A stretch of 50,033 nucleotides of DNA from Candidatus Adiutrix sp. (GTDB taxonomy: Bacteria; Desulfobacterota; Desulfarculia; Adiutricales; Adiutricaceae): positions 1 through 50,033 of the forward strand of contig JAISJK010000095.1 of NCBI GenBank assembly GCA_031261565.1, given 5' to 3'. Made by a program: the position numbers and the translations under genes. The notes below the pieces were generated by a model. The model made no database searches. It had not been told where the DNA came from and worked only from the letters and a program-made list of their open reading frames with translations. This document shows positions 24,904 through 47,175 of this stretch, piece after piece. Position 1 is the stretch's first letter, and every line of letters begins with the position of its first letter.

Positions 24904-26820
24904 ATGGCCATGGATTTAAGGCTCAGCCAGAAACAGACTCAGGTCATGACCATGACCCCCCAGTTGCAACAGGCCATCAAGCTGTTGCAGCTCGGGCAGA
25001 TGGAGCTGGTTGAGGAAATAAATCAGGAGATGCTGGAAAACCCCATGCTGGAACTGGCTCCGCCGCCGGACAGCGCTGAGGCGGCGGCCCACGACAAGTT
25101 GAGCGATCCGGACTATGACCAGACTCCGGAGTCCGAGGGCCGAGAGGCCGATGAATTCGCCGACTCGGCCGGGGCCACCGGGGAAGAGGTGCGGGAGGAA
25201 TTTGACTGGGAGAATTACCTGGGCGAATATTCCAGCGCCCCTTCCACCAGTCTCAATGTCGGCAGCCACGAAAGCCCGGAGGAAACCCCCGGCTTTGAAA
25301 GTTTTGTGGCCGCCAAGACCTCGCTCAGCGACCACCTCTGCTGGCAATGGCGCTTTTCGGCGGCCAGCGAGCGCGATTTGATCCTGGGCTCGGCCGTTAT
25401 CGGCAGCCTGACTGACGATGGCTACCTGGCCGCCACCCTGGAAGAGCTGGCCGAGCAGGCCCAGGCCACGGTTGAGGAAATGGCCGCCATCGTGGCCCGG
25501 GTGCAGGAGCTGGATCCACCGGGGGTGGCCGCCCGCGACCTGGCCGAGTGTCTGCTCATTCAATTGAAGCGACTGGAGCCGGATCAACAGGAACCGGAGG
25601 AACCGGAGCCGGAGCAGCCGGAACTGGTGCGTCTGGGGTTGCAACTGGAGCGGCTTGAGCCGGACGCCAGCCTGGACAGCCTCCTGGCCGCCGAAATCTG
25701 CCGCCAATACTGGGATCTGGTGGAAAATAAAGATGTGCCCGGTCTCTGCCAGAAACTCAAAGCCACCAAAACGAAAGTGATGGCGGCCATTAAGCTCATC
25801 CGAGCCAGTAGCCTCAGCAGCCTGGCCGGTGAAATCTGCCACCATCACCCGGATCTGGTGGAAAAGAAAGACCTGGACGGTCTCTGCACTAGCCTCAAAG
25901 CTGTCAAAAGAACCACAAAAAAAATGGAGGCGGAGGTAAAGGAGGCCATTGAGGTGGTCATCGGGTTTCTGGAATCTCGCAGTAAGGCCGATGAAAGCCG
26001 CCGCCAGGCCGGCGAAATCCGCCGCTTGGCCGGTGAAATCTGCCGCCGTCACCTGGATCTGCTGGAAAAGAAAGACATGGCCGGTCTCTGCCGGGTTCTC
26101 AAAGCCGTCAAGGAAGACGTGGTGGGAGCCATTGAGGCCGTCCGATCTCTGGAGCCCCGCCCCGGCCGGCCCTACAACAACACCGATTCCGTTTATGTCA
26201 CCCCCGATGTCTATATCTCCAAAATCGGCGGGGAATACGTCATCACCCTGAATGAAGACGGCCTGCCCAAGCTGCGCATCTCCCGGGAATACCGCCGCCT
26301 CCTCACCGACAAAACCGCTCAGGGCGAGACTAAAAAATACCTCAGTGAGAAACTGTCGGGGGCGCGCTTTCTCATCCGCAGCATCAACCAGCGCCAGCGA
26401 ACCATCTACCGGGTGACCGAGGCTATTTTCAAGGTGCAGCGCGAGTTTCTCGACTATGGGGTGGAGCACTTAAAGCCCATGGTTTTGCGCGATATCGCCG
26501 AGGAACTGGGCTTTCACGAATCCACCATCAGCCGGGTGACCACCAACAAATATGTCTACACCCCCCAGGGGCTCTTTGAGCTGAAATACTTTTTTGACAG
26601 CCCCATCAACCGTTTTCAGGGCGAGGCTCTGGGCTCGGAGAGCGTCAAAAACCGCATCAGGCAGATCATCGCTGCTGAAGACCCCCAGAAGCCTCTGAGC
26701 GATGAGCGCGTTGTGGAAATCCTCCGGGGCTCCAACATTGACATAGCCCGCCGCACGGTGGCCAAATACCGGGAGATGCTGGGGCTGGGATCCTCCAGCG
26801 AACGGCGGCGTATGTATTGA
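24904..26820 (+). CDS. rpoN: RNA polymerase sigma-54 factor with internal triplication
   Basis: Sigma-54 directs RNA polymerase to -24/-12 promoters and needs AAA+ activators. Region I (residues about 1-50, QTQVMTMTPQLQQAIKLLQL) is intact, as are the DNA-binding helix-turn-helix (HESTISRVTTNKYV) and the RpoN box ARRTVAKYREMLGL near the C-terminus. At 638 residues it is about 150 longer than usual. The excess is in the core-binding domain: a module around GEICRRHLDLLEKKDMAGLC and the following helices occurs three times (residues about 257-302, 304-360 and 372-420). Only the third runs into the normal RSLEPRPGRPY. An extra Glu/Pro-rich piece repeats LKRLEPD as LERLEPD just before. It follows lptB by 35 bp. 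Confidence 0.95.
   Translation: MAMDLRLSQKQTQVMTMTPQLQQAIKLLQLGQMELVEEINQEMLENPMLELAPPPDSAEAAAHDKLSDPDYDQTPESEGREADEFADSAGATGEEVREEFDWENYLGEYSSAPSTSLNVGSHESPEETPGFESFVAAKTSLSDHLCWQWRFSAASERDLILGSAVIGSLTDDGYLAATLEELAEQAQATVEEMAAIVARVQELDPPGVAARDLAECLLIQLKRLEPDQQEPEEPEPEQPELVRLGLQLERLEPDASLDSLLAAEICRQYWDLVENKDVPGLCQKLKATKTKVMAAIKLIRASSLSSLAGEICHHHPDLVEKKDLDGLCTSLKAVKRTTKKMEAEVKEAIEVVIGFLESRSKADESRRQAGEIRRLAGEICRRHLDLLEKKDMAGLCRVLKAVKEDVVGAIEAVRSLEPRPGRPYNNTDSVYVTPDVYISKIGGEYVITLNEDGLPKLRISREYRRLLTDKTAQGETKKYLSEKLSGARFLIRSINQRQRTIYRVTEAIFKVQREFLDYGVEHLKPMVLRDIAEELGFHESTISRVTTNKYVYTPQGLFELKYFFDSPINRFQGEALGSESVKNRIRQIIAAEDPQKPLSDERVVEILRGSNIDIARRTVAKYREMLGLGSSSERRRMY
25672..26163 (+). repeat. Three tandem copies of an rpoN internal module
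   Basis: Copies at about 25672-25809, 25813-25983 and 26017-26163 share the pattern [L/A]AxEICxxxxDLxExKDxxGLCxxLKA. They also share DNA stretches such as TGGCCGGTGAAATCTGCC and GGTCTCTGCC, so they arose by in-frame duplication rather than convergence. The middle copy carries an additional insertion of charged residues. Confidence 0.85.
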
Positions 26821-46098: not shown

Positions 46099-47175
46099 AT
46101 GGGGTGGATGAAGAGAAATATGTATGGGCCCTACGTCTCCGTGGCCCAGAAAAAAGCCCGGGCGGAAAATCTGGCCCGCCGGCTGCAAAAAGAGAGGCCG
46201 GACTTGCGCCCGGTCTGCCCCCAGGGCCGAACCATTGCCGCCAGTTTCTGGGGCAAGGCCTGGTGCCGCCACCTCCGAACCTACGCCGACCACGTCAACC
46301 GCATCGGGCGCGGCCGCAGCTACGTCTTAAACAGCGCGGTCTGTCATCTGGAGGTGACCAGCGGGCGGCTGGAGGCCCTGGTGGCCGGTTCCCAGGGCCA
46401 CCCCTATAAGGTCGCCGTCACCGTGCAGCCGGTGGGTCAGAGTCAGTGGCAGGCCATCACCGAGGCCTGCGCCGGGCGGGTGGGCTCTATGCTGGATCTT
46501 TTGTCCGGCCGCTTTCCCAAGGAGATCATGGCCCGGGTCTCCGACCCGGAAACAGGCCTTTTCCCCAAACTGGGCGAGCTGAAATTCGCCTGCAGCTGTC
46601 CTGACTGGGCCCAGATGTGCAAACATGTCGCCGCCGTGCTCTACGCCCTGGGACACCGGCTGGACGAAGAGCCGGAGCTTCTGTTTACTTTGCGGGGTGT
46701 GGATCCGGGTGAGCTGGCCAACCTGCAGGCTCTGGGCCAGGTGGCTGACGCCGGCGCGCCGGCCGAGATCAGCGCGGAATCTCTCTCCGCCATGTTGGGC
46801 ATTGAACTGGATCTGGGGACGGGCAAGCCTCCCTCCCGGCGCAAAGCGTCTCCCCCGCCCAAGGCTGCGTCTTCACCGCCCAAGGCTACGCCCCAGCGGC
46901 CAGCCGCTCCCCGGGCCAAAGTCGCCAGGGCCTCGGGTCGTCGGCCGGCGGCCCCGCCGGCCTTCGCCAACCCGGAGCGCCTCAAAGGCCGGGAGATAGC
47001 CGCCCTGCGTAAAAAAATGAAGCTGACCGTGGCTGAATTCGCCGCCGCTCTCGGCTCAGCCCAGATTTCGGTGGTCAGATGGGAAGCCCAAAAAATTCCC
47101 GCCCTGCATCAAGCGTCAAAAGATAAACTGCTGGCCCTGGCCGCCAAGGTGGGCTCAGGCCGCCTCCGCCCGTAA
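46099..47175 (+). CDS. SWIM zinc-finger protein with C-terminal XRE helix-turn-helix
   Basis: A 358-residue protein. Residues about 45-160 form the conserved region of bacterial SWIM proteins (ASFWGKAWCRHLRTYADHVN, RGRSYV). The SWIM zinc finger ligands are C165, C167, C174 and H176 in CSCPDWAQMCKH. A Pro/Ala/Lys-rich linker (about 245-295) follows, and then a domain like an XRE-type helix-turn-helix (about 298-350: GREIAALRKKMKLTVAEFAAAL, SVVRWE). The HTH is an addition not usual in this family. It is 34 bp after the SNF2 helicase. AGGAGA precedes the ATG. Its 3' end overlaps the convergent GNAT gene by 21 bp. Confidence 0.88.
   Translation: MGWMKRNMYGPYVSVAQKKARAENLARRLQKERPDLRPVCPQGRTIAASFWGKAWCRHLRTYADHVNRIGRGRSYVLNSAVCHLEVTSGRLEALVAGSQGHPYKVAVTVQPVGQSQWQAITEACAGRVGSMLDLLSGRFPKEIMARVSDPETGLFPKLGELKFACSCPDWAQMCKHVAAVLYALGHRLDEEPELLFTLRGVDPGELANLQALGQVADAGAPAEISAESLSAMLGIELDLGTGKPPSRRKASPPPKAASSPPKATPQRPAAPRAKVARASGRRPAAPPAFANPERLKGREIAALRKKMKLTVAEFAAALGSAQISVVRWEAQKIPALHQASKDKLLALAAKVGSGRLRP

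Follow-up and report, generated by a model that had tools for sequence, protein, structure and literature searches.

A patchwork in-frame expansion inside the core-binding domain of sigma-54 in a Candidatus Adiutrix species

The window analysed here is a 50,033-nt stretch of contig JAISJK010000095.1 (assembly GCA_031261565.1, Candidatus Adiutrix sp., forward strand), from a gut bacterium. The host genome is 95% complete and comprises 2.24 Mb in 139 contigs. The window carries rpoN, the gene for sigma-54, with the following features.

24904–26820, plus strand: rpoN, sigma-54; complete open reading frame of 638 aa (about 493 aa in congeners)
24919–25056, plus strand: region I, activator-interacting domain (AID), residues 6–51 (Pfam PF00309, E = 1.5e-16)
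25294–25572, plus strand: N-terminal part of the core-binding domain (CBD), residues 131–223 (Pfam PF04963)
25575–25671, plus strand: acidic 15-bp repeat (EPEEPEPEQPE) and partial second QLKRLEPD copy, absent in relatives
25684–25809, plus strand: module M1, diverged extra copy of ~42 residues, located by repeat alignment
25822–25968, plus strand: module M2, diverged extra copy with a 7-codon insertion, located by repeat alignment
25985–26047, plus strand: 21-bp triple repeat (KADESRR-QAGEIRR-LAGEICR) running into M3, located by repeat search
26026–26151, plus strand: module M3, assigned as the native C-terminal CBD subdomain from conserved columns, omega and pLDDT
26335–26811, plus strand: DNA-binding domain (DBD) with HTH and RpoN box (Pfam PF04552, E = 5.9e-60)

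The encoded protein is 145 residues longer than RpoN of the congeners, which comprise Ca. Adiutrix MAGs and strain Smac51; every congener protein has about 493 residues and a single C-terminal CBD module, whereas the window RpoN has three. Identity to the congener proteins is 75–84% over the aligned residues. The CBD profile PF04963 is complete but matches in two stretches (profile positions 2–137 and 97–185; protein-level E = 1.8e-62), and an intact RpoN box, ARRTVAKYRE, lies at 26746–26775. The same domains and the same upstream order, lptC-lptA-lptB-rpoN, are found for RpoN of Ca. Adiutrix and other Desulfobacterota; with Smac51, the order is shared for those four genes only. Sigma-54 of E. 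coli and Klebsiella in solved holoenzymes (8f1i, 5ui8, 7qwp) agrees in sequence and predicted fold over region I, the CBD, the ELH-HTH and the RpoN domain but contains no counterpart of M1, M2 and the linkers.

Using a 125-nt reference, three direct copies were located at 25679, 25817 and 26021 (ungapped identity 60% and 74%). All module pairs were 71–74% identical in DNA when aligned in frame with 7 codons of M2 omitted. The best self-match of the repeat region scored 58.8, whereas 150 codon shuffles gave no score above 15.2, and the array was the only direct repeat of at least 40 nt within 1.5 kb in the 50-kb window. The insert is a patchwork of M1, M2, the partial QLKRLEPD copy, the 15-bp repeat and the 21-bp triple repeat. 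A further two-copy 21-bp tandem repeat (90% matching) is present elsewhere in the window, at 46846–46887. No module copies were detected outside rpoN when the host genome was searched.

Several proposals of an earlier note on this DNA are borne out by these data, namely the unusual length of RpoN, the in-frame triplication of a module, and the integrity of the other functional parts (AID, N-terminal CBD, DBD and RpoN box). Its placement of the module in the core-binding domain also stands. By sequence, the repeat unit corresponds to the C-terminal CBD subdomain only, and the insert is placed inside the CBD, between its two subdomains, and not between region I and the CBD. Its effect is thus not just a longer spacer from region I to the DNA-binding part, as the note had supposed.

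The three modules differ in how they have evolved. M3 connects to the downstream protein as it does in relatives and retains all 15 columns that are conserved in 90% or more of 27 relatives, while M1, where charged and aromatic residues of conserved positions are missing, has given up four and M2 two. Omega was 0.14–0.34 for M3 against the congeners, compared to 0.97 (0.44–2.29) for M1–M3 and 0.46 (0.23–0.97) for M2–M3, the intervals being wide because the modules are short (42 codons). Third positions dominate the differences between M3 and the congeners (about 4–10/4–9/16–18 by codon position), whereas the differences between copies are roughly even (16/10/11, 9/12/12 and 13/12/12). On this sequence evidence, M3 is assigned as the native copy, under purifying selection, and M1 and M2 as extra copies; the even codon-position differences, together with omega, suggest that M1 and M2 are under relaxed constraint. 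The idea of three equivalent core-binding units is therefore not sustained. Hydrophobic columns were kept at 16 of 16 positions in M3 and at 14 of 16 in each of M1 and M2, compared to 11.6–12.1 in a neutral simulation starting from M3 with transition bias set at 2.5 (P = 0.13–0.19, not significant). This retention is somewhat above expectation, and some structural constraint on M1 and M2 is possible. Once the insert is left out, RpoN shows no unusual rate of evolution (branch 0.148 compared to 0.065–0.242 in congeners).

An AlphaFold2 model built on a 37-sequence alignment was confident over the N-terminal CBD (residues 141–223, block pLDDT 93–97) and the M3 region (residues 371–420, block pLDDT 95–97). 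The insert was drawn as long helices with block pLDDT of about 58–86, and its position is not fixed by the model, given an overall pTM of 0.46. A Foldseek search with the model returned sigma-54 of solved polymerase complexes. In such complexes the path of sigma-54 through the polymerase is fixed and the CBD plugs the RNA exit (PMC10786286, PMC7057263), contacting the beta flap tip and the beta' zinc finger (PMC10786286). Both contact regions are identical to those of the congeners where read (one congener's beta was left out), and the altered core binding proposed by the earlier note thus finds no support in sequence.

The title of a paper on the Aquifex CBD speaks of a "conformational fracture point", reportedly the joint between the two CBD subdomains. 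The insert, which by sequence lies between these subdomains, may sit at that joint.

The spacing between Q220, invariant among the relatives compared, and L384, nearly invariant, is 163 residues in the window RpoN compared to 17–23 in 36 relatives from several phyla. The protein thus departs from the uniform length and CBD spacing of sigma-54, a variant trait of the factor and not a defining one. Among the genomes that matched the CBD profile, 55 at class level and 380 at phylum level, no relative had the same expansion, in a screen that rests on split CBD matches and that expansions yielding one Pfam match would escape. The class table was a full listing; the phylum table gave match counts for all genomes, and the six others with two matches were inspected. 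These six (G080, G093, G187, G189, G292 and G327) turned out to be cases of two separate genes, of gene fragments at the end of a contig, of weak matches to part of the profile, or of a short insertion of another kind. In G093 (G093:C154:23048-23731) and G292 (G292:C11:20399-21097), the CBD match is likewise split within one open frame, but the extra residues form a short insert near CBD profile position 48 and do not repeat the C-terminal subdomain at the site seen in the window RpoN. Literature searches turned up no sigma-54 described as having a repeated CBD.

Synonymous divergence between copies (dS 0.38–0.56) was lower than that between M3 and the congeners (0.65–1.0), with overlapping intervals. 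M1, M2 and M3 formed one clade in the DNA tree (support 0.907); the protein tree lacked that clade. The lower dS and the DNA-tree clade indicate that the expansion most likely arose on the branch leading to this Ca. Adiutrix species, and comparison with close relatives, which had been suggested for dating, agrees in that all of them lack it. The expansion is apparently recent, largely tolerated and adjacent to an intact original copy.

The window RpoN appears to serve a functioning sigma-54 system. A CBD profile search of the 95%-complete host genome returned one CBD gene and no second rpoN, consistent with the earlier note. Exact matches to the –24/–12 pattern TGGCACN5TTGCW numbered 18 in the genome, compared to 0 for the reversed pattern used as control, and the number of sites per Mb was the highest among seven congeners searched. 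One repeated element accounts for 5 of the 18 sites (variant sites L137 and L146 counted in), and others lie 5' of genes with the Pfam names FlgE, FlgH, transglycosylase, type IV pilin, LpxC, DctP protein and DnaJ protein. AAA+ activators (PF00158) gave 13 matches, 12 of them strong. With consensus promoters and activators both present in the genome, the sigma-54 system looks alive, and the earlier expectation that the protein is probably active is supported at this level.

Taken together, these results are probably best explained by a young, patchwork, in-frame expansion of rpoN that is tolerated, with M3 the original module and M1 and M2 passengers. In-frame duplications and short slippage repeats put about 145 residues, including M1 and M2, between the two CBD subdomains, and the original M3 kept its connection to the remaining protein. 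Docking at the RNA exit, on the beta flap and the beta' zinc finger, would still be carried out by M3 together with the N-terminal CBD subdomain, and RpoN is predicted to be active for that reason. M1 and M2 would protrude beside the exit as a mostly helical extension binding nothing essential, its reading frame maintained solely by the need for the parts downstream, while its amino acids drift. The expansion is a real, rare and lineage-specific form of a known factor, and its interest is most likely evolutionary and not mechanistic. The only sigma-54 of a genome with a live-looking promoter set has a natural 145-residue CBD insertion, which offers a ready-made test of how much the sigma-54 architecture tolerates and of where the flexible CBD joints lie.

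It is unlikely, if conceivable, that M1 and M2 have instead gained a function: lying next to the RNA exit, they could form a helical arm with an effect on the release of sigma, its affinity for core or its response to activators, or with another binding partner. The hydrophobic pattern kept in both modules, the M2–M3 omega with its upper limit of 0.97, which suggests some constraint, and the high density of promoter sites agree with such a gain. The frame open through 145 codons does so too, but an absence of stops would be expected in any case, given the essential DNA-binding part further along the gene; moreover, the even codon-position differences, the conserved residues missing from M1 and the unchanged polymerase contact regions argue against it. 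A new regulatory arm at the RNA exit, or one contacting another factor, through which promoter escape or activator control is changed, is doubtful. Decay of rpoN towards a pseudogene in a shrinking genome, with the expansion as part of that decay, is highly improbable: the genome is small compared to the 4.7 Mb of one congener, but all other RpoN domains are intact, the branch without the insert is ordinary, and consensus promoters and activators remain. An assembly artefact or a chimera of related strains is equally improbable despite the fragmented assembly, since copies 26–29% different in DNA make stacking of repeats by assembly error impossible, the reading frame is intact, the copies cluster together and not with different congeners, and the lptC-lptA-lptB-rpoN order is that of a congener with a complete chromosome.

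The expansion aside, the promoter searches gave two further observations. Exact –24/–12 sites numbered one each in G001 (Ca. Adiutrix intracellularis) and G002, 22 in G003 and 18 in the window's genome, with rpoN and activators present in all four. The single sites in G001 and G002, despite rpoN and activators, suggest that some members may be losing part of their sigma-54 regulon.

The repeated element is an interspersed sequence of ~100 bp that carries a perfect or near-perfect –24/–12 site and, after it, a (CT)n run whose length differs between copies. Copies are located on G000 contigs C54, C76, C109 and C21 (loci L139, L141, L148 and L137), with a variant on C102 (L146), and three copies lie close to a contig end, at distances of up to about 225 bp. 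The element may represent a mobile repeat, or a promoter region whose length varies. The L146 variant has different flanks, and an open reading frame with a signal-peptide-like start is found about 310 bp downstream of it.
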